This document shows, one piece after another, positions 7,500 through 22,005 of a stretch of DNA of 64,000 bases. The position numbers and the translations under genes are program-made. The notes beneath the pieces are model-generated. The model was given only the letters and a program-made list of their open reading frames with translations, was not told the origin of the DNA and made no database searches. This stretch comes from Bryobacteraceae bacterium (lineage in GTDB: Bacteria > Acidobacteriota > Terriglobia > Bryobacterales > Bryobacteraceae): assembly GCA_025928545.1 (NCBI GenBank), contig JAICJH010000006.1, positions 62,001 to 126,000 on the forward strand. Reading direction: 5' to 3'. The first letter of the stretch is position 1. Every line of letters starts with the position of its first letter.

Positions 7500-9092
7500 A
7501 TGCCGGAATCCGCAAATAGATCTCTGTTCGCCGATCGAACCCGCTCGATCGCCTTTTGGCTGGGCTCACTCGTCGTCGCAATCGGCGTCGGCATGCACCT
7601 GCCCATGTTCCTGATGGGGCGCGCGACGCACTACCGGCTCGCCGGTATGCCGATGGGTACGCCCATGATCGTGGGCATGTTTCTGATCATCCTGGGTGTT
7701 GCCGCGGCCGCCTATGGCTTACTGCCCGTCCGGCAGGAAAGCCAGCCGCTGAACTATGGGACCATTACGCCGCCTGAAGATGCGCCTCTGACGAAACACC
7801 ACTGGATGCAGCTCGGTCTGATCGGAATTGCCCTCATCATCGATGTCATGAAAGCGGCTTCTCTTGGTTTCGTAATCCCGGGCATGAGAGTTGAATACGG
7901 GCTGAGCGGTCCCCAGATCGCGGTACTCCCCATGGTCGCCCTCACGGGCACTACAGTCGGCTCTTTCATCTGGGGCGCACTCGCCGATATTTATGGCCGC
8001 CGGGCTTCCATCCTTCTCGCTGCTGTCATGTTCGTCGGCACCTCAATCTGCGGAGCCATGCCGTCCTTCGCATGGAATCTGTTCATGTGCTTCCTCATGG
8101 GCCTCGCCGCCGGCGGCATGCTCCCTGTTGCCAATGCTCTGCTGGCCGAAATCATGCCTACAAAGCACCGTGGCTGGTGTCTCGTGCTGCTCGGCGGCAT
8201 CGGTACCATTGGTGGCTATTACGCCACCAGCCAGATTTCCGCTCTCCTCCAGCCTCATTTCGGATGGAGAATCATGTGGCTGATCGGCTTTCCCACCGGC
8301 CTGATTCTGATCGGCCTCAGGCCGTTTTTTCCCGAGTCCGCGCAGTTCCTGCTGGAGAAAGGCCGCTTTGAAGAAGCCCGCGAAACTCTTTCCCGCTACG
8401 GAGCCGCTATCGTCCCCAACCGTCTCACGCCGGGCCAACCTTCTGCTAAAACCGCCAAAGCTCCAGCCCCGCTGGATAAGCCGAACCACGGCTTTGGACT
8501 CGGCCTCGCCCTCACCCTTGCGGCTCTCGCCTGGGGCTTTGTCAATTTCGGTATCGTGCTCTGGCTTCCCGGAAGCCTCGTCGCTGAGGGTCGCAGCGTA
8601 AGTATCGCCAGCGCCCTGATCGCGAAATCCGCTTTGATCGCCGTCCCAACGGTTGTCGTCGTTACCTGGCTTTATAGCCTCTGGAGCACTCGGCGGGTTC
8701 TCATGCTGGCCATCGCAATCACCATGCTTGGCTTGGTTGCTACTCTGCTTCGCGCCGTCGTTCCCGTCCTTGCAGACCCCATCATCTCGGTGTCATTGCT
8801 GATCGTTGGCAGCAGCGCTGTCATCTCCATTCTCATGCCGTACGCGGCCGAAAATTTCCCCGTCAGAAGCCGTGGCCGCGCTACCGGTTGGGTCGCGGGA
8901 TGCAGCAAGGTGGGCGGTGTGATTGCCCAGACCCTGGCTGTTTTTGCGCTGATTCCTGCATTCCGCATTGCCGCGGGCGCCGTTGCGATCCCCGCCGCAG
9001 CCTCGTTAATCCTGATATGGATCTTCGGGCGCGAAACCCGTGGCCGCGACCTGCGCGAACTCGAATCCTCGAGCTCCGGTCTCCACCGTTAA
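7500..9092 (+). CDS. MFS transporter with an extra N-terminal two-helix segment
   Basis: A 530-residue major facilitator carrier. Residues from about 100 form the usual 12-helix core, with the loop 2-3 signature GALADIYGRRAS and a PESAQFLLEKGRFEEAR linker, as in aromatic-acid/sugar/SV2-like symporters. Ahead of it come two extra hydrophobic helices (about residues 15-33 and 51-70) and a hydrophilic linker (PVRQESQPLNY). The frame is open to 7287, but that part has no membrane or family character, so ATG 7500 is used; an AAGGA site sits unusually far upstream (about 17 bases). Substrate not predictable. It converges on the GH95 gene. Confidence 0.8.
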   Translation: MPESANRSLFADRTRSIAFWLGSLVVAIGVGMHLPMFLMGRATHYRLAGMPMGTPMIVGMFLIILGVAAAAYGLLPVRQESQPLNYGTITPPEDAPLTKHHWMQLGLIGIALIIDVMKAASLGFVIPGMRVEYGLSGPQIAVLPMVALTGTTVGSFIWGALADIYGRRASILLAAVMFVGTSICGAMPSFAWNLFMCFLMGLAAGGMLPVANALLAEIMPTKHRGWCLVLLGGIGTIGGYYATSQISALLQPHFGWRIMWLIGFPTGLILIGLRPFFPESAQFLLEKGRFEEARETLSRYGAAIVPNRLTPGQPSAKTAKAPAPLDKPNHGFGLGLALTLAALAWGFVNFGIVLWLPGSLVAEGRSVSIASALIAKSALIAVPTVVVVTWLYSLWSTRRVLMLAIAITMLGLVATLLRAVVPVLADPIISVSLLIVGSSAVISILMPYAAENFPVRSRGRATGWVAGCSKVGGVIAQTLAVFALIPAFRIAAGAVAIPAAASLILIWIFGRETRGRDLRELESSSSGLHR

Positions 9093-9200
9093 ACTCAGTT
9101 CAGCGGCAGTAACAATCACGCCCGCCGCTTGCGCGCACGCTGGGCGCAACGGAATGCGATCTTTTCGTGCCGCTCTTATCAGCCGGACGATCTCCCAGCC

Positions 9201-11630
9201 TCAGCTGCCGTTCCACGTCAGCGTCTGTCCGGAACGCAGCCGCAGATCCTTCACCGCCGCTCCATAGCGGAGCCGGACAGAATTCCCCGCGGTTGATTTC
9301 ACCTTCGAGCTCGATAGCTTGCCATCTTTCCATGCCACATCCACTTCAAAGCCACCGCGTGCCCTCAATCCCGTGACCGACCCCGTTGGCCAGGCCTTCG
9401 GCAATGCCGGCAGAAGTTCTATTTGCCCATCGTGGCTCTGGACCAGCATTTCTGCAATCGCCGAAGCCCCGCCGAAATTCCCGTCGATCTGAAACGGTGG
9501 ATGCGCATCGAACATATCGGGATACGTTCGCTGCGGACTCAACAGGAAATTCAAAATACTGAACGCATGATCGCCTTCGCCCAGGCGGGCCCAGAGATTG
9601 ATGCGCCACGCAGTAGCCCATCCCGTCGCCTGATCGCCGCGAATCTCGAGCGAGCGGCGGGCCGCTGCCGCCAGTTCCGGCGTGTCCCGTCGATTGATCT
9701 GCCAACTCGGATAGAGGCCGAACAGATGCGATACGTGACGATGATGCACATCCTGGGCCTGCATATCCCAATCTTCCAGCCATTCCTGCAATTGGCCCGC
9801 GCTCCCGATCTGGCTGGGCGCGAGCCGCGCGCGCGTGGCCGCCAGCTGCGCGCGAAAATCGGCGTCAACTCCGAGGATTTCGCCGGCGCGAATCGAATCG
9901 GCAAACAGATCCCGCAGGATCTGCATGTCCATCGTCGGTCCGGGCGCAACCGCCGCGCCGTGCGGGTGTACATTCTCCGGAGACAGCGATGGATTCGTCA
10001 CCAGCCAGTGATGTTTCGGCTCCTCCACCAGAGTGTCGAGGAAGAACCGCGCCGCGCCCTTCATCGCCGGCCAGGCTTTTGCGAGGAACGCTTTATCGCC
10101 GCTGTAATCGTAGTGATCCCACAGATGCAGCGCCAGCCACGCACCGCCTGTCGGCCACATTCCGTATGGCGCGCCGTCAATCGGTGCGGATGCTCTCCAG
10201 ATGTCCGTATTGTGATGCACCACCCAGCCCTGGGCGTTGTACATTTCCTTCGCCGTACGAGCCCCGGTATCTGTGAGGTCCATGATCATCGCTATCAACG
10301 GGTCTACGCACTCGGCGAGATTGGTCGGCTCCGCGGGCCAGTAATTCATCTCTGTGTTGATGTTGATCGTGTATTTGCTGCCCCACGGCGGACTCATGCT
10401 CTCGTTCCAGAGCCCTTGCAGGTTAGCTGGCTGGCCGCCAGCGCGGGAACTGGATATCAGCAGATATCTCGCGAACTGAAAGTACAGTGCCGCCAGTTGC
10501 GGATCGCCGCCGTTGGCGAAATCCCGGATGCGTTCGTCCGTCGGCTTCTTCGCGGCCGCAGTGGTTCCCAGATCCAGCTGCACACGCCGGAACAGACGCT
10601 GGTGTTCTGCGATGTGAGCCCGGCGGATCGCATCGAACGGCTTCTTTTCCGCCGCGGCCAGAGTCTGCTCGGTTGCCTGCCGCGGATTGCCACTCACGTC
10701 TTTATAGCTCTTGTAACTGGTTGCGGCCGCGATCAGCAGAGTGGCGGAATCCGCGCCCTCCACTGCAACGGTTTGCCCTTCCGCCGTCGTGCGTCCACCC
10801 TGCGCCAGAACCCGGACGCGCGTCTCGAAAGTCAACGCTCCTTTGATGCCGGATGAATCGCCATTCACGCCCGTCATAACTAAGCTGCCCGGCGCCTCGG
10901 CTGTCACTGTCGCCTTCTGCGGCGTATTCATCTCGGCTTTGAAGGAAATCTTCCCGCGCTCTCCCGCCGTGAGCCGTACGACGATGACCTGATCCACGGG
11001 GCTCGAAAAAACTTCCCGCGTATATCGCACTCCGTCAGCAGTATAGTCAACGCGGGCTATGGCTGTATCCAGATCCAGATCGCGCCGGTAATTCCCCACC
11101 GAGTTCGTTGCCGGAAAGGTCAATTGCAGATTGCCTATGGTTTCGTACGGCATCTGCGCCAGCGGTTTTGCCATCACTTTATCGGTGATCAGTTTCGCGC
11201 CTTCCGCATACTTGCCTTCGAACAGGAGCCGCTGTACTTCGGGCAGCGCGCCCCGGGCATCGGGATTGACCGGATCGTACGGACCTCCCGCCCACAAAGT
11301 ATCTTCGTTGAGCTGGAGTCGTTCGTTCACCACACCGCCGAATACCATCGCGCCCAGACGGCCATTGCCTACCGGCAGGGCCTTGACCCATTCCGTCGCA
11401 CCGGGTCCGCCGCCACGCCCGCCAACCGGGGGCGCGTAAGGGTGATCGGACGCGGGTTGGCGATACCAAAGCGTCATCGTGCCCTCGGGGGGCGGCGCCT
11501 CCCCCATGAACTGCACTCCGGCAACTGGTGGGTTCTGCGCGTGGACAGCGAACTGCACGCTCCACAGCGCCACTCCAATGCCAGCCACCAGCATGACTGC
11601 ACTACAACATATTCCCTTTGAAACGTGCAT
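9201..11630 (-). CDS. Secreted GH95 alpha-L-fucosidase
   Basis: An 809-residue exported glycoside hydrolase of family 95, which removes alpha-1,2-linked fucose (some members act on L-galactose) by inversion. Signal peptide: MHVSKGICCSAVMLVAGIGV... cut near VHAQ. Family markers are LPVGNGRLGAMVFGG and LQLNEDTLWAGGPYDP in the N-terminal beta domain. In the (alpha/alpha)6 barrel they are NLQGLWNESMSPPWGSKY and NTEMNYWPAEPTNL, where the active-site Asn residues are expected, then GNFGGASAIAEMLVQS and GQIELLPALPKAWPTG. ATG 11630 follows a GGGGG site by 7 bases; an in-frame start at 11681 would hide the signal. A short GGRGGGPG insert lies near the N-terminus. Confidence 0.92.
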   Translation of the reverse strand: MHVSKGICCSAVMLVAGIGVALWSVQFAVHAQNPPVAGVQFMGEAPPPEGTMTLWYRQPASDHPYAPPVGGRGGGPGATEWVKALPVGNGRLGAMVFGGVVNERLQLNEDTLWAGGPYDPVNPDARGALPEVQRLLFEGKYAEGAKLITDKVMAKPLAQMPYETIGNLQLTFPATNSVGNYRRDLDLDTAIARVDYTADGVRYTREVFSSPVDQVIVVRLTAGERGKISFKAEMNTPQKATVTAEAPGSLVMTGVNGDSSGIKGALTFETRVRVLAQGGRTTAEGQTVAVEGADSATLLIAAATSYKSYKDVSGNPRQATEQTLAAAEKKPFDAIRRAHIAEHQRLFRRVQLDLGTTAAAKKPTDERIRDFANGGDPQLAALYFQFARYLLISSSRAGGQPANLQGLWNESMSPPWGSKYTININTEMNYWPAEPTNLAECVDPLIAMIMDLTDTGARTAKEMYNAQGWVVHHNTDIWRASAPIDGAPYGMWPTGGAWLALHLWDHYDYSGDKAFLAKAWPAMKGAARFFLDTLVEEPKHHWLVTNPSLSPENVHPHGAAVAPGPTMDMQILRDLFADSIRAGEILGVDADFRAQLAATRARLAPSQIGSAGQLQEWLEDWDMQAQDVHHRHVSHLFGLYPSWQINRRDTPELAAAARRSLEIRGDQATGWATAWRINLWARLGEGDHAFSILNFLLSPQRTYPDMFDAHPPFQIDGNFGGASAIAEMLVQSHDGQIELLPALPKAWPTGSVTGLRARGGFEVDVAWKDGKLSSSKVKSTAGNSVRLRYGAAVKDLRLRSGQTLTWNGS

Positions 11631-12080
11631 AGCATTACCCCCGGACAAATTCTGGAAGCGGTACCGCAACAACGTCACCATTCTATAGGCCCGGGATTTC
11701 CGATGAACTCGGCGGGCTTACGGGCGCGCTTGGACCGATCAAACTCCGGGGAATGAGTGGTCGGCCCGCAGGTGCGTTAGATCCCGAATAACAGCATTTT
11801 TTTACGCGCCTCGGTCAATCAATTGCAAGCAACGGCAACATGCGAGCTGTCGCCCTCGCGATTTGGATTGAAGGCGCAGAGTAAGACACTCGCCATCGGG
11901 ATTTTGGCAGCATCGGGCAGGCGGATTATGCAGCTCACTTAGAAATTCCGCAGCGGGTCCGGATTAGAGATTTTCGTGAATGGGCTTCTTCTCACTACTG
12001 TCTCTGCCTGTTCTTGCATGGGACGCGATTTAGTGGAAAACCTTATTTCATGCGTTCGCCTCCTGGAGGCGTGAAGAAAC
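11631..12080. other. Intergenic region between divergent GH95 gene and oxidase operon
   Basis: About 450 bases with no credible gene on either strand. It should hold the divergent promoters for the GH95 gene and the operon starting at 12081, but I cannot place -35/-10 boxes with confidence. The only clear element is the small stem at 12057-12071 that contains the ribosome site of the next gene. Confidence 0.5.
12057..12071 (+). promoter_or_regulatory. Stem-loop containing the ribosome-binding site of the operon's first gene
   Basis: CGCCTC (12057-12062) pairs with GAGGCG (12066-12071) around a 3-base loop. The GGAGG Shine-Dalgarno sequence at 12065-12069 lies in this stem, 11 bases before ATG 12081. 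Sequestration could limit translation initiation. The pairing is seen in the sequence; the effect is inferred. Confidence 0.4.
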
Positions 12081-12578
12081 ATGGACGACCCATTAGCGAT
12101 TTACCTTCACGACCATCTGGCCGGTTCCAGCTTCGCGGTCGAACTTTTGGAAAAGCTCGCTTCGGAGTTTTCCGGCACGCGGTCGGGTGAAATCGCGCGC
12201 CAGCTTCTTCAACAAGTGCAGGTTGATCGCAAGACGCTGGAAGAGCTGATCGCGAAGGTTGGCAAGGCGAACCCCGACATTTACGACGCGCTCGGTTGGA
12301 TCGCCGAACGGGTCAGCCGGATCAAGCTTAAGCACGACGACCCGACGGGAATTGGCGCCTTCGAAGCGTTTGAAACTATTGGTCTCGGCCTGCTTGGCAA
12401 ACGGGCGTTGTGGGAGGCGATGCAGGTCTGGCAGGAGTCGGATTCCAGGGTTGCGGGTCCGGACTATGCGGATCTGCTGGCTCGGGCAGAGCAACAGTTT
12501 CAAGGTGTAAATCACTACCGCCTGGAATTGATCCGCGGCGAATTGAGTACGAAGAGAGGAGATTCAGTCCAGCCATGA
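12081..12578 (+). CDS. Helical conserved hypothetical protein (ferritin-like?)
   Basis: A 165-residue soluble protein with no signal peptide, predicted almost wholly alpha-helical, opening PLAIYLHDHLAGSSFAVELLEKLASEF. The pattern of long amphipathic helices with scattered His/Glu (HDHLAGS, QLLQQVQVDRKTLEELI, EAFETIGLGLLGKRALWEAM, VNHYRLELIRGEL) recalls ferritin-like four-helix bundles. I do not see a clean paired EXXH di-metal motif, so metal binding is unproven. It heads the respiratory operon, and its stop overlaps the quinoprotein's start (ATGA). Confidence 0.65.
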   Translation: MDDPLAIYLHDHLAGSSFAVELLEKLASEFSGTRSGEIARQLLQQVQVDRKTLEELIAKVGKANPDIYDALGWIAERVSRIKLKHDDPTGIGAFEAFETIGLGLLGKRALWEAMQVWQESDSRVAGPDYADLLARAEQQFQGVNHYRLELIRGELSTKRGDSVQP

Positions 12579-14350
12579 AAATGCAGTGTTCAGCCTGTTT
12601 CCTGCTTCTGCTCGCACCGTGGGCAGCAGCCCAGGGACAAAGCCAGAAAATACAGGACCAGGCGGACGACGGGCAATGGATCATGCCCGCGAAGAACTAT
12701 GCCTCTACGCGTTTCAGCACTTTGACGGACATTAACACCGACACAGTCAAGAACCTTAAGCTGGCGTGGACATTCTCGACTGGGTTGACGCGTGGACATG
12801 AGGCTGGCCCGCTCGTGGTCAACAACACGATGTACATCGTGACGCCGTGGCCAAATATTCTCTATGCCCTGGACCTGACAAAGCCGGGTGGTCCGGTGAA
12901 GTGGTCTTACAAGCCGAAGCCGTCGGCCAGTTCGCAAGGGGTTGCGTGTTGCGATGTCGTCAACCGGGGGGCTGCCTGGTTCAACGGCAGGATTTACTAC
13001 AACACTCTGGACCTGCATACCGTCGCAGTCGACGCGACGACCGGAAAGGAGGTCTGGAATACAACGCTCGGCGACTTCAATAAGGGCGAAACGATGACGA
13101 TGGCGCCGATTGTCGCCAAGGGCGTTGTAATCGTCGGCGACAGCGGCGGCGAGTTCGGCATTCGCGGGTGGCTGGCGGGACTGGACGCGAAAGATGGGAA
13201 GATTTTATGGCGCGCCTATTCCACCGGGCCCGATAAGGATGTTCTCATCGGCCCTGGTTTTCATCCGTTTTACGCTTCGGAACGCGGAGCCGATCTTGGC
13301 ATGAAAACCTGGCCCGGCGACGCATGGAAAATCGGGGGTGGCACGGCCTGGAGCTGGATTTCCTGGGACCCCGAACTTGACCTCATCTATTACGGAACGG
13401 CCAATCCCGGTCCGTGGAACGCTGACCAACGTCCCGGAGATAACAAGTGGACCAGTACGATCTTTGCGCGCCGCCCCGAGACCGGGGAAGCTGTTTGGGC
13501 ATATCAGTTCAATCCTCACGACGTTCACGATTACGACGGGGTAAATGAGAATATCCTGCTTGATCTCACGATAAATGGGCAACTGCGCAAAGTTCTGGTT
13601 CATCCCGACCGAAATGCACGGATGTACGTGATCGATCGGGCGACGGGTGAAGTGATTTCGGCCGAAGCATACGCATTTCAAAACACCAGCGAGGGCGTGG
13701 ATCTGAAAACGGGCAAGCTCAAAATAAATTCAGCCAAAGTGGCTGGCACGAAAGCGGTGAAGGATATGTGTCCCGCGCCGCCCGGCGGCAAAGACTGGCA
13801 ACCGTCCGCATTCTCGCCGCGGACCGGGTGGCTCTATGTGCCTCACAACAATCTCTGCTATGAAGCTCAGACTGTAAATGCCAATTACATTGCGGGGACG
13901 CCCTACGTTGGAGAGAACGTGCGCATGTATGCGGGGCCTGGCGGCCAGCGCGGCGAATTCACAGCCTGGGACCCGGTAGCGGCGAAAGCCGTGTGGAGTG
14001 TGAAGGAATCGTTTCCGGCCTGGAGCGGCGCCATGGTGACGGCCGGCGATGTCGTTTTCTACGGAACCATGGACGGGTGGTTCCGCGCGCTTGACGCAAA
14101 GACGGGAACGAAGTTATGGGAGTTCAAGACCGGCTCCGGCATTATCTCGCAACCGATTACGTATAAGGGGCCGGACGGAAAACAATACGTGGCTGTTCTT
14201 TCGGGAGTTGGCGGATGGGCCGGGGCGATCGTCGCCGGCAACCTCAATCCGGCTGACGGGACAGGTGCGCTGGGTTTTCTAAACGCCATGGCAGACTTGC
14301 CGAATCAAACGACGAAGGGAGGCATGCTCTATGTATTCGCGCTTCCCTAG
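12575..14350 (+). CDS. PQQ-dependent methanol/ethanol dehydrogenase
   Basis: A 591-residue periplasmic quinoprotein with a signal peptide (MKMQCSACFLLLLAPWAAAQG). It shows the eight-bladed propeller tryptophan repeats (KLAWTFSTG, GKEVWNTTLG, GTKLWEFKTG). The vicinal Cys125-Cys126 (GVACCDVV) forms the unusual disulfide over PQQ. Active-site sequence NPHDVHDYDGVNENIL contains Asp319-Tyr320-Asp321; the first Asp fits the catalytic base, and a second Asp two residues on is the mark of lanthanide-dependent (XoxF/PedH-type) enzymes. There is no heme domain, so electrons must leave through a separate cytochrome, presumably the next gene, which it overlaps by 20 bases. Start is set by ATGA overlap with the previous gene. 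Confidence 0.9.
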   Translation: MKMQCSACFLLLLAPWAAAQGQSQKIQDQADDGQWIMPAKNYASTRFSTLTDINTDTVKNLKLAWTFSTGLTRGHEAGPLVVNNTMYIVTPWPNILYALDLTKPGGPVKWSYKPKPSASSQGVACCDVVNRGAAWFNGRIYYNTLDLHTVAVDATTGKEVWNTTLGDFNKGETMTMAPIVAKGVVIVGDSGGEFGIRGWLAGLDAKDGKILWRAYSTGPDKDVLIGPGFHPFYASERGADLGMKTWPGDAWKIGGGTAWSWISWDPELDLIYYGTANPGPWNADQRPGDNKWTSTIFARRPETGEAVWAYQFNPHDVHDYDGVNENILLDLTINGQLRKVLVHPDRNARMYVIDRATGEVISAEAYAFQNTSEGVDLKTGKLKINSAKVAGTKAVKDMCPAPPGGKDWQPSAFSPRTGWLYVPHNNLCYEAQTVNANYIAGTPYVGENVRMYAGPGGQRGEFTAWDPVAAKAVWSVKESFPAWSGAMVTAGDVVFYGTMDGWFRALDAKTGTKLWEFKTGSGIISQPITYKGPDGKQYVAVLSGVGGWAGAIVAGNLNPADGTGALGFLNAMADLPNQTTKGGMLYVFALP

Positions 14351-14879
14351 CCGGTTGGCGTATGGTGCGGCTTGCTGTCTTCTCGCACTCGCTGCCTGCA
14401 AGCGTGAACGCCGCGACGTGCGTCCGTCGCCGGCAGTTTCGGGGATGCCGGGCGATGCGGCGGGCGAGAGTACGCTGCGCCCTGGCGGCCAGGCGAACCA
14501 TGAGAATCTCAACAATCCATATGAAGGAAACGCGTATGCCATCTCCGAGGGCCAACGTCTCTACAACTGGTATAACTGCTCCGGTTGTCATGCCAATGGT
14601 GGCGGCGGCATTGGCCCGCCGCTGATCAAGAAAGACCAGCGCGACTGGATTTACGGCGGCGAGCCTTCCAATATTTTCGACACGATCGTGAAAGGCAGAC
14701 CGAATGGAATGCCGACGTGGGGAGGAAAGATTCCGGAGTATCAGGTGTGGCAACTAGTCACATATGTCCGCTCGCTCAACAATCTGGAGCCGAAAGCCGC
14801 CACGCCGCCTCGTTCCGATACGCTCGAAACAAAATCGGCGACGATTCTTCCGAATAAAGATGGAGCTCCGCATCCATGA
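14331..14879 (+). CDS. Lipoprotein c-type cytochrome (electron acceptor of the quinoprotein)
   Basis: A 182-residue protein with a lipoprotein signal (LLALAAC lipobox, Cys near residue 23), so it is membrane-anchored facing the periplasm. One heme site, Cys83-Ser-Gly-Cys86-His87, is followed by a likely axial Met in GMPTWGGKIPEYQVWQLVTYV, the standard class I ending. Linker regions on both sides are Pro/Ala-rich. Placed between the PQQ dehydrogenase (20-base overlap) and oxidase subunit II (ATGA overlap), it is the obvious shuttle between them. The partner role is inferred from position. Confidence 0.88.
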   Translation: MYSRFPSRLAYGAACCLLALAACKRERRDVRPSPAVSGMPGDAAGESTLRPGGQANHENLNNPYEGNAYAISEGQRLYNWYNCSGCHANGGGGIGPPLIKKDQRDWIYGGEPSNIFDTIVKGRPNGMPTWGGKIPEYQVWQLVTYVRSLNNLEPKAATPPRSDTLETKSATILPNKDGAPHP

Positions 14880-15844
14880 ATCAGTCGATGTGGCACACCG
14901 GAGGTCCGAACGCAGCGCACATTCAGGAACTCGCGGTATTTTTCGGCCTTCTGCTGGGTACGATTTTCGTCATTGTTGTGGCGGTCGCACTACTCTCGAT
15001 CCGACGACGCCATCGGGGCATCGAACAGGAGCCGCTGGAGGGCTCGCATCAACCCTCGGCCGGCACGGAGCACCGGCTGCGAACGACCGTTGGCATCGCC
15101 TCGGGAGTTACCGTCGTGATTCTCTTTGGACTGACAATTCTGAGCGTCTCGGTAGGCAAGGCCGTATCGGCCTCGGTTGCGCCCGCCGGAAACCTCAGCG
15201 TTGAAGTGACAGGCGCGCAGTGGTGGTGGAAGGTGCGCTACCTCAATGACGACCCGAGTCGCGTTCTGCTGACAGCTAACGAGATTCATATCCCGGCTGG
15301 GCGGCCGATCGCCATACGGGGATTAGCCGACGACGTGATCCATAGCTTCTGGGTGCCAGGTCTGCAGGGCAAGCGCGACCTGATTCCCGGCCGCATCACG
15401 CTGGAGTGGCTTCAGGCGGACCGACCCGGCGAGTACCGTGGGCAGTGTGCGGAATTCTGCGGCCTCCAGCATGCCCACATGGCGTTCTGGATAGTGAGTG
15501 AATCGCCCGATCAGTTCAACAAGTGGATGGATAACCAGCTTCAGCCTTCCATTGAGCCAGTTGACGACGACACCAAACGTGGCCAAAGCATATTCCTCAA
15601 GAGCGGTTGTGTTCTGTGCCATTCCATCCGCGGCACAGACGCGAGTGCCCAGATTGGACCCGATCTGACTCATTTCGGAAGCCGCAAAACGATCGCGGCC
15701 GGTACGCTTCCCAACACGAAAGGGAATCTCGCCGGCTGGATTGCGGATCCGCAGAATATTAAGCCGGGGACGCACATGGCGACGGTGCCGATCCAGCCCG
15801 CTGAAATGCAGCCGCTGATCGACTATCTGGAGAGTTTGAAATGA
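14876..15844 (+). CDS. coxB: Cytochrome c oxidase subunit II with fused cytochrome c (caa3 type)
   Basis: A 322-residue subunit II. Two N-terminal membrane helices are followed by the CuA domain: aromatic patch GAQWWWKVRYL, His156, then Cys191-x-Glu193-x-Cys195, His199 and Met202 (CAEFCGLQHAHM), a complete CuA site. A C-terminal cytochrome c domain has Cys245-Val-Leu-Cys248-His249 and ends with METLK-like sequence after HMATVPIQPAEMQPLIDYL, which supplies the likely Met ligand. It takes electrons from periplasmic cytochrome and passes them to subunit I. ATGA overlaps join it to both neighbours. Confidence 0.95.
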   Translation: MNQSMWHTGGPNAAHIQELAVFFGLLLGTIFVIVVAVALLSIRRRHRGIEQEPLEGSHQPSAGTEHRLRTTVGIASGVTVVILFGLTILSVSVGKAVSASVAPAGNLSVEVTGAQWWWKVRYLNDDPSRVLLTANEIHIPAGRPIAIRGLADDVIHSFWVPGLQGKRDLIPGRITLEWLQADRPGEYRGQCAEFCGLQHAHMAFWIVSESPDQFNKWMDNQLQPSIEPVDDDTKRGQSIFLKSGCVLCHSIRGTDASAQIGPDLTHFGSRKTIAAGTLPNTKGNLAGWIADPQNIKPGTHMATVPIQPAEMQPLIDYLESLK

Positions 15845-17736
15845 CACCGGCAGCGTCAGAGCAGCATGCACATGCGGATCTGGAGGTTTTGCGGCGCACG
15901 TGGAGTTCCCGGCCGGGCCTGCTCGGGTGGCTCTCGGAAATCAACCACCGCGAAATCGGCCGCCGTTATATCCTGACTGCTTTTTTCTTCCTGTTGGTTG
16001 GCGGGCTTGAGGCATTCCTGATGCGATTGCAACTGGCTAAGCCCGAAAATACCTTCCTCTCGGCCGCGCGCTACAACCAGATCTTCACTCTTCACGGCAC
16101 CACGATGATGTTTCTTTTCGCGGTACCTGTAATGGAGGGAATGGGAGTTTATCTCGTTCCTCTGATGGTGGGAACACGGAACGTCGCATTCCCCCGGCTC
16201 AATGCTTTCGGTTACTGGATGTATCTTGCGGGCGGCATTTTCCTGTACGGTTGTGCCTTCTTCAACATGATTCCGGATGCCGGATGGTTTGCGTATCCGC
16301 CGCTTTCCGGCCCGCAGTATTCACCGGGAAAAGGTGTGGATGCCTGGGCGCAGATGATCACCTTCACGGAAATCTCTGCTCTCTGCGTTGCCGTGGAGCT
16401 CATCGTCACCATTCTTAAGATGCGCGCTCCGGGCATGTCATTAAACCGAATGCCGATGTATTGCTGGTCGATGCTGATTCAGTCTTTCATGATCGTCTTC
16501 GCCATGCCCGCCGTGATGGTTGCAAGCACGATGTTTCTGCTGAACGATCGAACCATCGGGACGCACTTCGTCAATCCGGCGGAGGGTGGCGATCCACTTC
16601 TCTACCAGCATGTGTTCTGGTTCTTCGGCCATCCGGAGGTCTACATTATCTTTTTGCCGGCGCTGGGAATGATTTCATCAATCCTCGAAACGCACACGCG
16701 CCGCCGCATCTTCGGGTATCCGGCGTTGGTGCTGTCGCTGGTGGGGAACGGCTTTATCGCGTTCGGCCTCTGGGTGCACCACATGTTCGCGACAGGTCTG
16801 CCTCAAATCGGGGAAGCTTATTTCACCGCTGCGAGTATGATGATCGCGATCACCAGCGGCGTTCAGATCTTCTGCTGGCTCGCGACAATGTGGAGCGGCA
16901 GGCTGCAGTTGACCGCGGCGGTTCACTTTGTTTTCGGCTTCATCTTCATCTTCGTTATGGGTGGCATGACGGGCGTCATGCTCGCATCCATTCCGCTCGA
17001 CCTTCAGGCGCACGACACGTTCTTTGTCGTGGCGCATTTTCATTACGTTCTGATCGGCGGCGCCCTGTTTCCGCTTTTTGGCGGGTTCCATTACTGGTTC
17101 CCGAAATTCACCGGCCGCAGAATGGACGAACGGCTCGGGAAGCTCTCGTTCTGGATTCTCTTTATCGGCTTCAACCTGACGTTCTTCCCGATGCACTGGC
17201 TGGGCATGATTGGGATGACGCGGCGCATTTACACCTATCTCCCGGGGCTCGGCTGGGAGCGCTGGAATCTTTTGGCGTCGGGCGGAGCGGTCATCATTCT
17301 GCTCGGCGGCATCTTATTTATTACCAATGCCCTTCGCAGCCGCGCGAACGGAGCACGCGCCGGAAACGATCCCTGGGCGGCGAGTACGCTCGAATGGGAA
17401 GCGGAGTCACCACCTGCACCTTACAACTTTCCGAACCTTCCCGTCGTAACCAGCCGAACCCCGCTGTGGACACCCGCCGCCGAGCGCTCCATCGTCGTCG
17501 GTCTCCGCGAGGATCGCCGGGAAGTCCTCATCACAAGCGTTCTGGATGCGGAACCGCATCACCGTACCGTGCAGCCGAGGCCTACTCTGTGGCCGATACT
17601 GACCGCTTTAGGTTTTTCGATTGGTCTGGCGGGGTCGATTTTCGCGTTCTCCTGGTATTACGTCGCATCGGTGCTCGGCATGATCGGTCTGATCGGATGG
17701 TTTTGGCCGGAACGGCCGCTGGAGGTTGCAGCATGA
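15841..17736 (+). CDS. ctaD: Cytochrome c oxidase subunit I
   Basis: A 631-residue heme-copper oxidase catalytic subunit. Metal ligands are complete: His85 (low-spin heme), His264 and the cross-linked Tyr268 in GHPEVYI, His313-His314 (CuB), His399 and His401 (HFHYV). Glu266, the inner D-channel acid, is kept. Aligned by hand with A-type enzymes, the D-channel entry Asp is Asn114 (GTRNVAFPRLN) and the K-channel Lys is Gln342 (TSGVQIF). After the 12-helix core there is a hydrophilic linker and two more membrane helices (about residues 580-620), as in long caa3-type subunits. ATGA overlaps connect it to subunits II and III. Confidence 0.95.
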   Translation: MTPAASEQHAHADLEVLRRTWSSRPGLLGWLSEINHREIGRRYILTAFFFLLVGGLEAFLMRLQLAKPENTFLSAARYNQIFTLHGTTMMFLFAVPVMEGMGVYLVPLMVGTRNVAFPRLNAFGYWMYLAGGIFLYGCAFFNMIPDAGWFAYPPLSGPQYSPGKGVDAWAQMITFTEISALCVAVELIVTILKMRAPGMSLNRMPMYCWSMLIQSFMIVFAMPAVMVASTMFLLNDRTIGTHFVNPAEGGDPLLYQHVFWFFGHPEVYIIFLPALGMISSILETHTRRRIFGYPALVLSLVGNGFIAFGLWVHHMFATGLPQIGEAYFTAASMMIAITSGVQIFCWLATMWSGRLQLTAAVHFVFGFIFIFVMGGMTGVMLASIPLDLQAHDTFFVVAHFHYVLIGGALFPLFGGFHYWFPKFTGRRMDERLGKLSFWILFIGFNLTFFPMHWLGMIGMTRRIYTYLPGLGWERWNLLASGGAVIILLGGILFITNALRSRANGARAGNDPWAASTLEWEAESPPAPYNFPNLPVVTSRTPLWTPAAERSIVVGLREDRREVLITSVLDAEPHHRTVQPRPTLWPILTALGFSIGLAGSIFAFSWYYVASVLGMIGLIGWFWPERPLEVAA

Positions 17737-18350
17737 CCGAACAGCGAACAATCGATGTCTCGGGCCTGCCACCTTATGCGATTTCCAACCAGTCGCCGCT
17801 CTTCTGGGGGCAGGTGCTCATGTGTCTCATCGAGGGGACTCTGCTTTTCATTCTGATTGCGACTTACTTCTACCTCCGGCTCGGAGTGAATGCATGGCCG
17901 GCGCCAGGCGTGCGTCTGCCGGATGTCACTATGCCAACCCTGGCATTGATTCCTCTCGCCGCCAGTTGCGTTGGTTCTTATCTGGCGAGCGAGGCGGCAA
18001 AGAAAAACAGCCGTTCCGGAATGCTTTGGGGACTTGGGCTCAATCTCGGGCTCGCGCTTGTTTTTCTGACGATGCGAGGGTTCGAATGGAACGCGCTGAA
18101 TTTCAACTGGGCGAGCGATACGCATGGCAGCATCGTGTGGTCCATTCTGTTTTTGCATTCCTACGACGTCGTTGCGGATCTGCTGATGACTTTCGTGCTG
18201 ATCGTCATCGTGGCATCCGGCCGCTACGGGCCCCGACAACGAATCGGCGTGCATGTCGACAGCGTTCTGTGGTATTTTCTGTCCGGCATCTGGATTCCCC
18301 TGTACGGCCTCATCTATTGGGGACCGCGGCTGATCGGAGAGGGCAGATGA
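17733..18350 (+). CDS. ctaE: Cytochrome c oxidase subunit III
   Basis: A 205-residue membrane protein with about five helices, the short form of subunit III. The segment PLFWGQVLMCLIEGTLLFILIATYFYLR matches the family's first helices with the conserved Glu; HSYDVVADLLMTFVLIVIV and DSVLWYFLSGIWIPLYGLIYW form the C-terminal part. It stabilises subunit I. The start is fixed by ATGA overlap with subunit I, and its stop overlaps the start of the next gene in the same way. Confidence 0.9.
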   Translation: MTEQRTIDVSGLPPYAISNQSPLFWGQVLMCLIEGTLLFILIATYFYLRLGVNAWPAPGVRLPDVTMPTLALIPLAASCVGSYLASEAAKKNSRSGMLWGLGLNLGLALVFLTMRGFEWNALNFNWASDTHGSIVWSILFLHSYDVVADLLMTFVLIVIVASGRYGPRQRIGVHVDSVLWYFLSGIWIPLYGLIYWGPRLIGEGR

Positions 18351-18639
18351 GGCAAGCCGTGCTTGGCGCGGGCCTGGCTCTGGCACCGCTGGCCTGGTTC
18401 ATCAGCCTGGAAGCGAATTTTGCGTTGGCGCCGCTGGCCTGCGGGAGTCACGGAAAAGCATTCTGCTGCTGGTTTCCCTTGTGACTCTGGCGTTGGCGCT
18501 GACAGGCAGCCTGCTGGCCTGGACACAGCGAGGTTTTCAGCAACGACTGGCGGTCCCCGGCGCGGTGATCAGCGCTCTGTTCGCGCTCGTTATCCTGGCG
18601 CAGTCTATCCCTAACCTGCTGCTCGGAGGTTGTGAATGA
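18347..18639 (+). pseudogene. Small membrane protein of the oxidase operon, interrupted by a frameshift
   Basis: ATG 18347 overlaps the subunit III stop, but the frame ends at TGA 18482-18484 after 45 codons (MRQAVLGAGLALAPLAWFIS..., ending CCWFPL). From about 18455 another frame continues as a good hydrophobic protein (ILLLVSLVTLALALTGSLLAW..., ending PNLLLGGCE). It stops at TGA 18637-18639, exactly overlapping the ctaG start as ATGA, as at the other junctions. One extra base near the AAAA run at about 18455 would restore a roughly 97-residue, three-helix protein. Either a one-base deletion, a sequencing/assembly error or frameshifting explains it. Small membrane proteins are common between subunit III and ctaG. 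Confidence 0.7.
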
Positions 18640-19466
18640 GAAGCGCCATCCTCCAGGCCGAGTGGGGACTGGACCCGGGCATTGTCATTCCGCTGTTGTT
18701 GACTGCCGTGCTCTACGCTCGCGGCACGGCGACCGCGCCCGGGGTCTCCCAAAGCCGGAAAGCCTGCTTCTGGGCTGGATGGTTTCTTCTGTGTATCGCG
18801 TTGGTGTCGCCGTTGCACTCGCTTGGCGAAGAATTGTTCTCGGCGCATATGGTGCAACATGAGCTCCTCATGGTGGTAGCGGCGCCTCTGCTCGTTTTGG
18901 CTCGGCCGCTGGAACTGCTCTGGGGACTCCCTCTCGCCTGGAGACGAGCGTTCGGACAATTCTCGAAGGTGAAGGCAGTGCATGGAAGCTGGCGGTTCTT
19001 CACGCGTCCGATGACAGCATGGTGGGTTCATGCCGCCGCGCTGTGGTTATGGCATATTCCGCGCCTGTTTGAGGCTGCGGTGGAGAACGACTGGATTCAT
19101 TCCGTGCAGCACTTGAGCTTTCTCGGCTCGGCGCTGCTTTTCTGGTGGTCGCTCTTTTATGCGCATGGCAGCATCCGGTACGGCGCCAGCGTGCTCTATC
19201 TCTTTACTACTGCCGTCCACACCAGTATTCTCGGTGCATTACTGACTTTCGCTTCGACAATCTGGTATCCCCACTACCTGGTGGCGGCGCCTTTTCCCGG
19301 GCTCACGCCTCTCGAAGACCAGCAGGCAGGCGGACTGATTATGTGGATCCCGTCGGGAGTCGTCTACATCATCGGCGGCCTGGCATTATTCCGCGAATGG
19401 CTGCGCGAGAGCGACCGGATCGCGGACGCACGTGCCTGGAGCCGAAAGGGCGAGTATGCGGCTTAG
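18636..19466 (+). CDS. ctaG: Cytochrome c oxidase assembly factor CtaG (caa3 type)
   Basis: A 276-residue polytopic protein with about seven membrane helices. Family marks are SPLHSLGEELFSAHMVQHELLMVVAAPLLVL with its conserved His residues (likely copper-related), WWVHAAALWLWHIPRLFEAA, and LEDQQAGGLIMWIPSGVVYI. CtaG of this type is needed to assemble active caa3 oxidase. It overlaps the next cytochrome gene by 11 bases. Confidence 0.93.
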   Translation: MRSAILQAEWGLDPGIVIPLLLTAVLYARGTATAPGVSQSRKACFWAGWFLLCIALVSPLHSLGEELFSAHMVQHELLMVVAAPLLVLARPLELLWGLPLAWRRAFGQFSKVKAVHGSWRFFTRPMTAWWVHAAALWLWHIPRLFEAAVENDWIHSVQHLSFLGSALLFWWSLFYAHGSIRYGASVLYLFTTAVHTSILGALLTFASTIWYPHYLVAAPFPGLTPLEDQQAGGLIMWIPSGVVYIIGGLALFREWLRESDRIADARAWSRKGEYAA

Positions 19467-19812
19467 CGCTTTATTGCTGCCGCTGGTATTGCTGGCAAGC
19501 TGTGACGTGAGGCCCGGCGCAGTTTCGGCGGGCGGGGATTCAACCGCGGGCTCGCAGGAAATCTCTCGTCTTGGGTGCGGCAGTTGCCACACGATTCCAG
19601 GCGTCGTGGGCGCGCATGGCAAGGTGGGCCCCAGTCTGGAAGGCATTGCCACACGCAGCTATGTGGCTGGCCAGCTTCCCAATCAGCCGCCAAATCTGGA
19701 GCAGTGGATTCAGCACCCGCATTCCGTTCATCCCGACACTCTGATGCCGGAATTGGGGCTGTCCGACGCACAGGTCAGGGACATTGCCACCTATCTGTAT
19801 TCGTTGAATTAG
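19456..19812 (+). CDS. Small lipoprotein c-type cytochrome
   Basis: A 118-residue protein. The lipoprotein signal MRLSALLLPLVLLASC ends in a lipobox Cys at 16, so it is lipid-anchored outside the inner membrane. One heme site, LGCGSCHTIPG, is followed by KVGPSLEGIATR and a Met-bearing segment (DTLMPELGLSDAQVRDIATYLYSL), the class I monoheme pattern. It closely resembles the cytochrome domain on subunit II (HSI/HTIPG, GPDL/GPSLEG, QPPNLEQWI). ATG 19456 follows AAAGGGCG and overlaps ctaG; an upstream in-frame start at 19432 would spoil the signal. It probably donates electrons to CuA. Confidence 0.88.
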   Translation: MRLSALLLPLVLLASCDVRPGAVSAGGDSTAGSQEISRLGCGSCHTIPGVVGAHGKVGPSLEGIATRSYVAGQLPNQPPNLEQWIQHPHSVHPDTLMPELGLSDAQVRDIATYLYSLN

Positions 19813-19840
19813 CAGTCATTTGTTGAATCAGGAGTTCCTT

Positions 19841-20236
19841 ATGATCACACTCGCAGACGCAAAACGCATTTTGGCCGCCGCGGAACGGAAAGCGGAAGAA
19901 ATCGGGCAGCCGATGAATATCGCGGTCGTCGATACAGGAGGAAATCTGGTCGCGCATATTCGCATGGACAGGGCGTGGATCGGCAGTGTCGATATCGCCA
20001 TCAACAAGGCGTGGACCGCAAGGGCCTTTGATATATCGACCAGAGAGCTTGCGGAGCTATCGCAATCGGGCGACCAGTTCTTCGGGATTCACGCCTCCAA
20101 CGGCGGCCGGGTCATGATCTTCGCCGGCGGAATTCCATTGAAGCGGGGAGACGAGGTACTTGGGGCTATCGGCGTCAGCGGTGGAATGGGCAAACAGGAT
20201 CAGGCGGTGGCGGAGGCCGGGGCGGAGGCTTTTTAA
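19841..20236 (+). CDS. GlcG/HbpS family protein
   Basis: A 131-residue protein of the GlcG/HbpS (DUF336) family: MITLADAKRILAAAERKAEEIG, PMNIAVVDTGGNLVAHIRMD, GSVDIAINKAWTARAF, and RGDEVLGAIGVSGGMGKQDQAVAEAG. Members form octamers; the Streptomyces HbpS binds and degrades heme, while others have unclear roles next to oxidoreductase genes. It has no signal peptide. It follows the last operon cytochrome by 28 bases with its own AGGAG site, so it is probably the operon's last gene. A link to heme supply is a guess. Confidence 0.87.
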   Translation: MITLADAKRILAAAERKAEEIGQPMNIAVVDTGGNLVAHIRMDRAWIGSVDIAINKAWTARAFDISTRELAELSQSGDQFFGIHASNGGRVMIFAGGIPLKRGDEVLGAIGVSGGMGKQDQAVAEAGAEAF

Positions 20237-20254
20237 GCTGCGGTAGGCGGGAGT

Positions 20255-20290
20255 AAAAAACGGGCGAAGCCGATCCGGCGCTTCGCCCGT
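20255..20290 (-). terminator. Rho-independent terminator of rpsU
   Basis: Inverted repeat ACGGGCGAAGC (20260-20270) / GCTTCGCCCGT (20280-20290) with a 9-base loop. On the minus strand the stem is followed by a run of T (complement of 20255-20260). It lies 24 bases past the rpsU stop. Confidence 0.85.
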
Positions 20291-20313
20291 TCAATGCTTT
20301 GTCGGGTAAGAGG

Positions 20314-20511
20314 TTATTCGGGATCCCGGCGACTCTTTTTCCGGTTCCGCTTGCGAGCGAGTGCTGCCTTGACCCGCTTCTTTTCACCTGGCTTCAGGTA
20401 AAAGGAATGCCGCTTGACTTCCTTGATGATGTCTTCGGTCTGCACCTTGCGCTTGAAACGGCGCAACGCGTTCTCGAGCGTTTCCCCTTCCTGCAATCTG
20501 ACTTCAGCCAT
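20314..20511 (-). CDS. rpsU: 30S ribosomal protein S21
   Basis: A 65-residue basic protein matching S21 throughout: VRLQEGETLENALRRFKRKV, then EVKRHSFYLKPGEKKRVK, ending in a basic tail ARKRNRKKSRRDPE. It binds near the 3' end of 16S rRNA on the small subunit platform and aids initiation. A strong GGAGG site precedes the ATG. It is monocistronic, with its own terminator, and divergent from enolase. Confidence 0.96.
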   Translation of the reverse strand: MAEVRLQEGETLENALRRFKRKVQTEDIIKEVKRHSFYLKPGEKKRVKAALARKRNRKKSRRDPE

Positions 20512-20640
20512 TAGAAATACACCTCCTCACCGATCGGAAATTTGCACGGCACGCCTTACCGGCGAACGTGCTGTATCATATGAGTTTGCGCGTTCAGAGA
20601 ACTGCCTGAACTGCAATTCTTAAGCGTAACATACATGTAA

Positions 20641-22005
<1,365 letters not shown>

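Follow-up and report, generated by a model that had tools for sequence, protein, structure and literature searches.

A proposed XoxF3-type methanol respiration operon in a Bryobacteraceae bacterium with an oxidase whose proton channels appear to be rewired

How are the electrons of an alcohol carried to oxygen when the dehydrogenase and the terminal oxidase are encoded side by side, and by which way does such an oxidase obtain its protons? These questions are raised by ten genes located on the + strand at positions 12081-20236 of a 64,000-nucleotide stretch of DNA (the window) from a Bryobacteraceae soil bacterium. It is proposed, with a probability of about 0.75, that these genes constitute a XoxF3 methanol-respiration operon with a rewired-channel oxidase. 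XoxF, a predicted enzyme with pyrroloquinoline quinone (PQQ) and a lanthanide, would oxidise methanol in the periplasm, and the electrons would be handed to a XoxG-like lipoprotein cytochrome c and on through the CoxB cytochrome c domain, CuA and haem a to the haem a3/CuB site, where O2 would be reduced; CuB would be inserted by CtaG. The oxidase would represent a bacterial branch of the A family in which the K channel has been given up and the entrance of the D channel mostly altered. Its protons may travel along a modified D-like path comprising Asn131, polar residues of helix IV, Glu177 (window numbering) and Glu278 (Paracoccus numbering, used below unless stated otherwise). The proposal draws on gene content, gene order, conservation, residue states and a tree. 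A dedicated chain from methanol to O2 is plausible.

The residues of the oxidase were read in a set of 101 sequences, obtained from 137 COX1 open reading frames reduced to 97 by identical core and supplemented with four of type b. The numbering was carried over from Paracoccus 1ar1 by means of a bridge sequence and agrees with the residue table of PMC12901375. The term XoxF3-type CoxA is applied to 65 sequences with at least 54% identity to the window CoxA (coxA, 15841-17736, 631 aa), regardless of whether xoxF is adjacent, including those of genome G167 and of Phenylobacterium and a second copy in genome G297. In all 65 the lysine of the K channel, Lys354, is replaced by Gln. At the entrance of the D channel Asp124 is retained in 3 of 64 sequences; the other 61 have Asn (41), Ser (11), Thr (4), Ala (2), Gln (2) or Glu (1) there, and one further row has a gap. 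Asn113 is kept in none, Val, Ile or Leu being present in 59/64, and Asn199 is kept in 5/64, with Glu in 30/64, the window included; Asn131 is kept in 59/64. Glu278 (of the HPEVY motif) and Tyr280 are retained in 65/65, and so are five of the six haem and CuB histidines that were read; the sixth is seen in 64, the remaining row having a gap there. In the window CoxA these positions are Val103 (Asn113), Asn114 (Asp124), Asn121 (Asn131), Glu266 (Glu278) and Gln342 (Lys354), with E186 at the position of Asn199 and E177 two residues before that of Ser192. A glutamate at the site of window Glu177, in helix IV, occurs in 64/65 XoxF3-type sequences; the 25 oxidases with Lys that served as controls have Gly, Cys or Ser there. 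These controls were defined by having Lys, and 24/25 of them also have Asp124. Subunit II is altered as well. The motif E-x-x-W-[ST], in which the entrance glutamate of the K channel lies, is found in 0/83 CoxB sequences (all CoxB matches other than six ordinary oxidases, sisters of the XoxF3 type included) versus 6/6 ordinary oxidases. Judged by these residues, the catalytic core of an A-family haem-copper oxidase is kept and the K and D channels of the canonical A1 type are not matched. The catalytic residues, kept across five phyla, rule out a pseudogene or a protein other than an oxidase. It was also considered that the carboxylate of the D channel had moved to the position of Asn199. The window, with N and E at the two positions, fits such a rule, but neither position is acidic in 32/64 sequences, and as a general one it is not supported.

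What these replacements mean for the transport of protons can be read in several ways. Pumping persists in archaeal and Rhodothermus oxidases whose D and K pathways are altered, and oxidases of the ba3 type work with a differently built K channel. One reading is that the oxidase does not pump, taking up only the protons needed for the formation of water and conserving about half as much energy per electron as is usual. In its favour are the loss of Lys354 and that of Asp124, where Asn is the commonest replacement. According to a 2026 review (PMC12901375), D91N essentially eliminates proton movements in the D pathway of laboratory enzymes and K319M blocks the reduction of haem a3; these are the same two positions in bovine numbering. 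Against it, the conservation of Glu278, Asn131 and the new helix-IV glutamate suggests that a proton path has been under selection, and the pumping archaeal and Rhodothermus enzymes speak the same way. A non-pumping oxidase is considered rather unlikely. The opposite reading, an ordinary pumping oxidase in which Gln and water molecules stand in for the lysine and the K channel still works, much as the differently built one of ba3 does, is about equally doubtful. It is favoured by Ser or Thr at position 351 (52/65), by Ser at position 291 (59/65) and by the kept catalytic residues, but the entrance motif of subunit II has been lost along with the lysine, which points to abandonment of the channel and not to a single substitution. 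The path may have been rebuilt, pumping may have been lost, or Gln with waters may serve, and sequence alone does not decide among them; the modified D-like path is the best-supported guess. On a wider scale it is suggested tentatively, at somewhat less than even odds, that a large bacterial A-family branch, many members of which serve lanthanide methanol dehydrogenases, has dispensed with the K channel and now takes protons in by a path remodelled around the helix-IV glutamate, and that it either uses one non-canonical proton route or has lost pumping.

The association of this oxidase with xoxF is widespread. Out of 270 relatives the best 80 were kept as named loci, a sample that leans to near ones; when 19 of them with less than 3.5 kb after xoxF are left out, 61 remain, and 55 of these, in five phyla, carry an oxidase of this type on the strand of xoxF and at most 6 kb downstream of it (Acidobacteriota 20/20, Pseudomonadota 22/28, Gemmatimonadota 9/9, Verrucomicrobiota 3/3, Myxococcota 1/1). 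A gene order unique to the window, or a chance neighbourhood, is ruled out by these 55 relatives. The six exceptions comprise one inverted arrangement (L097), two loci with another Lys-less oxidase nearby (L119, L123), one with the oxidase elsewhere in the genome (L082) and two (L088, L102) in which no oxidase of the XoxF3 type lies in the stretch covered. At two loci (L094 and L101, about 8230-11773) two xoxF3 genes stand in tandem ahead of the oxidase genes. A joint search for COX1 and xoxF in 297 Acidobacteriota genomes gave eight with XoxF3 (at least 59% identity), all of which also carry the oxidase type (at least 57%), on a separate contig in G192; a ninth genome, G167, has the oxidase type and no XoxF3 match. 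The oxidase type is present in 20/20 named isolate genomes as well, these having been picked for a xoxF3 locus. The distances of XoxF and CoxA are correlated (Mantel r 0.75 for 56 sequences, a value reached by none of 2000 permutations), which could result partly from shared host descent.

In a quick tree a single branch separates all Lys-less oxidases from the others, and the CoxA of the XoxF3 type make up a clade with a value of 99 in the Shimodaira-Hasegawa-like approximate likelihood ratio test (SH-aLRT). The sisters of this clade are Lys-less too, seven of them having Glu278 and four HPWVY, and a single replacement of Lys, placed before the XoxF3-type clade and its sisters, is enough for this tree. 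A tie of K-channel loss to XoxF was considered; four of the sister Lys-less oxidases (L184, L232, L233 and L234), read with their flanks, have no xoxF nearby. The second Lys-less type, in which HPWVY replaces HPEVY and Glu278 thereby becomes Trp, is located near xoxF in L119, L123, L230 and L231 and not in L269 and L270; in another Lys-less oxidase, L279, Glu278 is replaced by Asp. Elsewhere in the Acidobacteriota, Asp and Lys are both retained at 20 further COX1 loci (L153-L172), and the Lys-less G067 keeps Asp. The window genome itself has five other COX1 matches, and the four that were read have Lys in every case and Asp in three, with Arg in L005.

The branch was also followed in 300 Burkholderiales genomes, the order of genome G302 (Massilia agilis), in a sample not chosen for xoxF; the search kept matches to the window CoxA at E<=1e-150 and thus selects for similarity. 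Matches were present in 19/300 genomes. When the seed G302, which had been chosen for xoxF3, and L268, a 53% match on a 3.3-kb contig, are left out, five have a XoxF3-type oxidase at 55% identity or more. In these five, Gln at 354 and Glu at 177 are constant and position 124 is Ser in three and Asp in two; xoxF was found in the fetched flanks of two, exactly those with Asp124. Fourteen more remote places and the partial contig L268 are Lys-less too. According to these sequences, the K-channel lysine is missing throughout the branch, and neither the loss of Asp124 nor linkage to xoxF extends to all of it.

The dehydrogenase (xoxF, 12575-14350) matches TIGR03075 with 635 bits against a cut-off of 480, and its closest solved structure is 4mae, a XoxF. 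The residues E193, N277, D319 and D321, which on the basis of the 4mae structure we take to be the metal ligands, are present in 56/56 aligned XoxF sequences, the extra aspartate D321 in 93/93 XoxF rows. A quick tree of 107 rows places the window and 92 rows of at least 57% identity on one side of a branch with SH-aLRT 94 (not starred), and three PDB rows of XoxF or methanol dehydrogenase and 11 others outside it. The inner side includes Methylobacterium oxalidis L113 (NBRC 107715, presumably the same strain as DSM 24028). The name XoxF3 is used because M. oxalidis has a single XoxF, which one paper (PMC8561711) places in this type. The same source notes a Trp at position 300; this residue is Trp in L113 and Tyr in the window XoxF. 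On this sequence evidence the dehydrogenase is XoxF3, predicted to depend on a lanthanide, and its substrate is most likely methanol, so that the term alcohol in an earlier note on this DNA can be narrowed.

Several observations weigh against the proposed operon function. The seventh gene of the ten is frameshifted in the window. The label of the XoxG-like cytochrome c (14331-14879) would follow from its gene position and from a weak match to the MoxG model TIGR03872 (5.9e-7, 29.7 bits, cut-off 147.8). No xoxJ, a gene usual in XoxF systems, lies between the window xoxF and the cytochrome c, and the xoxJ model TIGR03871 has no match at E<=0.01 in the window genome, which is 95% complete. Among the relatives 44/55 have a gap of xoxJ size after xoxF and 11 a short one, and TIGR03871 matches 5/5 gap genes tested. 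PqqC has no match in the window genome, and PqqE has none over the cut-off there, only weak matches to its model; therefore PQQ would be imported or made by unrecognised genes. Within the phylum PqqC is over the cut-off in 14/297 genomes, and among the eight XoxF3 genomes only G281 has both PqqC and PqqE over it; weak PqqE-model matches occur in other XoxF3 genomes and weak PqqC-model matches in G197, G042 and G286. Uptake of PQQ is the likely answer to the missing genes, and it has been suggested by Voutsinos et al., who counted 16/38 genomes as PQQ-makers (PMC10875860). The PQQ alcohol dehydrogenase model also has 80 matches in the window genome, three of them over the cut-off; some of the 80 are fragments of a single gene.

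The oxidase itself gives further grounds for caution. In three of the five Burkholderiales copies (L260, L261, L264) xoxF is absent from the fetched flanks, so the oxidase may serve other donors; in G167 it is found away from any XoxF3; and Asp124 is kept in 3/64 sequences and in both xoxF-linked Burkholderiales copies, therefore the change at the D entrance is not general. Pfam matches among the neighbours of unlinked oxidases comprise one protein with cytochrome c domains, one molybdopterin oxidoreductase, and sulphur-transport and metallo-beta-lactamase-fold genes, several neighbours being without a match. The copy in L264 stands beside sulphur-transport, DUF6691 and metallo-beta-lactamase-fold genes, which suggests a sulphur-derived donor in some genomes. 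From the absent xoxF, from G167 and from L264 one might conclude that a general oxidase has been recruited beside xoxF, its electrons coming mainly from bc1 or alternative complex III by way of a shared cytochrome pool. This is regarded as improbable because of the same-strand position downstream of xoxF in most relatives, the cytochrome c carried by CoxB itself, and the other oxidases of the genome, one of them about 5 kb from an NrfD match. On contig C104 of G000 (L138, L236) a YSHPAVY-type COX1 has an NrfD match, a candidate for alternative complex III, at a distance of about 5 kb.

Methanol dehydrogenases ordinarily bypass bc1. The earlier note had proposed a dedicated chain in which electrons never need bc1 or a shared cytochrome pool, and had described the pairing of dehydrogenase and oxidase genes as unusual. 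The dedicated character agrees with the joint encoding of a dehydrogenase, a cytochrome c, an oxidase with fused cytochrome and an assembly factor, and with the correlated distances. Exclusivity does not follow: the genome has, besides its other COX1 matches and the NrfD match near one of them, two cytochrome b matches, and the same oxidase type occurs without XoxF3 in G167 and without xoxF in the fetched flanks of the three Burkholderiales copies. Bypass of bc1 is nothing special to this layout. As for the pairing, it is not unusual in the XoxF3 clade, and the search for the gene order in other Acidobacteriota suggested in the same note found the oxidase downstream of xoxF at every locus counted.

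The operon is real, and only its seventh gene is frameshifted in the assembly. All ten open reading frames are on the + strand as the earlier note had described, with the exception that the frame of gene 7 is not intact, and Pfam and NCBIfam agree with its identities of genes 2-6 and 8-10. Gene 1 (12081-12578) codes for a predicted mostly helical protein of 165 aa without a Pfam or NCBIfam family; its fold prediction by AlphaFold2 (AF2) was useless, with a predicted local distance difference test score (pLDDT) of 44.8, and L047 alone of the 80 named loci has a homologue at E<=1e-4 (66% identity). The XoxG-like protein that follows xoxF is a monohaem cytochrome c (Cytochrome_CBB3, 2.6e-14), whose translation contains one CxxCH as well as an LAAC lipobox. 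Subunit II of the caa3-type oxidase (coxB, 14876-15844) combines a CuA domain (COX2) with a fused cytochrome c (Cytochrom_C), subunit I matches COX1 (1.7e-148) and TIGR02891 (696 bits) and has a C-terminal hydrophobic extension with hydrophobic stretches at 586-618 by hydropathy, and subunit III (coxC, 17733-18350, 205 aa) matches COX3 (8.9e-9). They are followed by the small membrane protein of gene 7 (18347-18639), the Caa3_CtaG copper assembly factor (ctaG, 18636-19466; PF09678, 6.4e-59), a second lipoprotein monohaem cytochrome c, SoxX-like (19456-19812; Cytochrom_C 2.5e-6, one CxxCH, LASC lipobox in the translation), and an HbpS/GlcG-like protein (19841-20236; PF03928, 7.1e-44).

Eight of the nine junctions had been said to overlap by 4 to 20 bases. 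Seven do so as read: 4 bases at 12578/12575, 14879/14876, 15844/15841, 17736/17733 and 18350/18347, 20 bases at 14350/14331, and 11 bases between CtaG and the second cytochrome c, provided that the latter starts at the ATG at 19456. The eighth, of 4 bases between gene 7 and CtaG, requires gene 7 to be read across the break in its frame, and the last junction is a 28-base gap ending at the ATG at 19841, the best start codon. A consensus scan of the + strand at 11650-20800 gave no sigma-70-like site within or before the operon, and since none was seen before it either, the scan says little about promoters. The neighbours look unrelated, with a glycoside hydrolase family 95 gene (Pfam) on the opposite strand upstream, and enolase and phosphoglycerate mutase, recognised by eye from the sequence, downstream.

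In gene 7 the ATG frame ends at 18484 (18347-18484, 45 codons) and the remainder continues in another frame up to CtaG. The copy of the nearest relative, L047, is intact with 97 aa, the window copy being one base shorter, and the break may be an assembly error or a real mutation. Members of this family are placed between CoxIII and CtaG and have an invariant pair of cysteines in 18/18 aligned relatives (chosen from 36 phmmer matches; of an initial selection of 24, six were dropped because their starts were unsure). The AF2 model of the L047 homologue (pLDDT 90.7) has three predicted helices, with one of the cysteines at the end of helix 1 and the other just after helix 3, and the pair may bind copper or form a disulphide. 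A fold search against the PDB gave no match at E<=0.001, and the three members scanned had no Pfam match over the cut-off. Together with the second cytochrome c, whose SoxX match in NCBIfam (6.5e-10) is below the cut-off, this small membrane protein probably belongs to the donor and accessory subunits. The HbpS/GlcG-like gene recurs, well conserved, beside XoxF3 genes (68-85% identity in L051, L052, L057, L088, L131 and L132). It occupies the same place at the end in L051, L052 and L057 (85%) and in L131 and L132 (75 and 81%), follows the operon also in L262 and L263 (46-48%), and stands in front in L088.

The xoxF3-oxidase pairing is already in print. Voutsinos et al. (2024, PMC10875860) describe XoxF3 with CoxI, CoxII, CoxIII, CtaG and CytC in Acidobacteria and mention an earlier mini-review. 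The XoxF3 clusters of Acidobacteria, Gemmatimonadetes and Verrucomicrobia presented there belong in part to genomes without PQQ synthesis, as the window genome may be; the window lacks xoxJ and ends with the HbpS-like gene. According to Degli Esposti et al. (2014, PMC4013037) an aa3 operon, COX operon type a-II of alpha- and beta-proteobacteria, often includes a PQQ methanol dehydrogenase and has a COX1 with a fused COX4-like C-terminus; the window operon likewise has a PQQ dehydrogenase, and its hydrophobic CoxA C-terminus would be a candidate for such a fusion. The words "proton" and "K-channel" are not in the main text of PMC10875860, nor are "K-channel", "K channel" and "proton channel" in that of PMC4013037. 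Among solved enzymes, the subunit II with fused cytochrome c of Thermus thermophilus caa3 (2yev_B) aligns with residues 12-322 of the window CoxB and reads RLEVVWT where the window has RLRTTVG. Variants of the K and D channels of archaeal COX1 have been mapped in PMC8239418, where one of the hypotheses weighed has seven K-channel losses in family A; those oxidases are archaeal, whereas the branch of the window is bacterial and often tied to XoxF3. In the open-licence literature searched there was no report of this channel signature or of K-channel loss in XoxF-linked oxidases; supplements and subscription classification papers were outside its scope, and the signature may be known.

What the D and K channels do in proton-pumping oxidases has been deduced largely from mutants of a few model enzymes. 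Examples of such mutants are given in PMC12901375. A widespread, catalytically intact natural oxidase that lacks the K-channel lysine and entrance glutamate, and usually the D-channel aspartate, would constitute an independent test of these roles, and if the reading proposed here is true, nature maintains enzymes with replacements at positions where laboratory mutations cripple model oxidases. In one survey of weathered granite and soil XoxF3 was the most abundant XoxF type, with 340/411 distinct sequences according to PMC10875860, and the channel question bears on the energy yield that soil bacteria would obtain from methanol through XoxF3.

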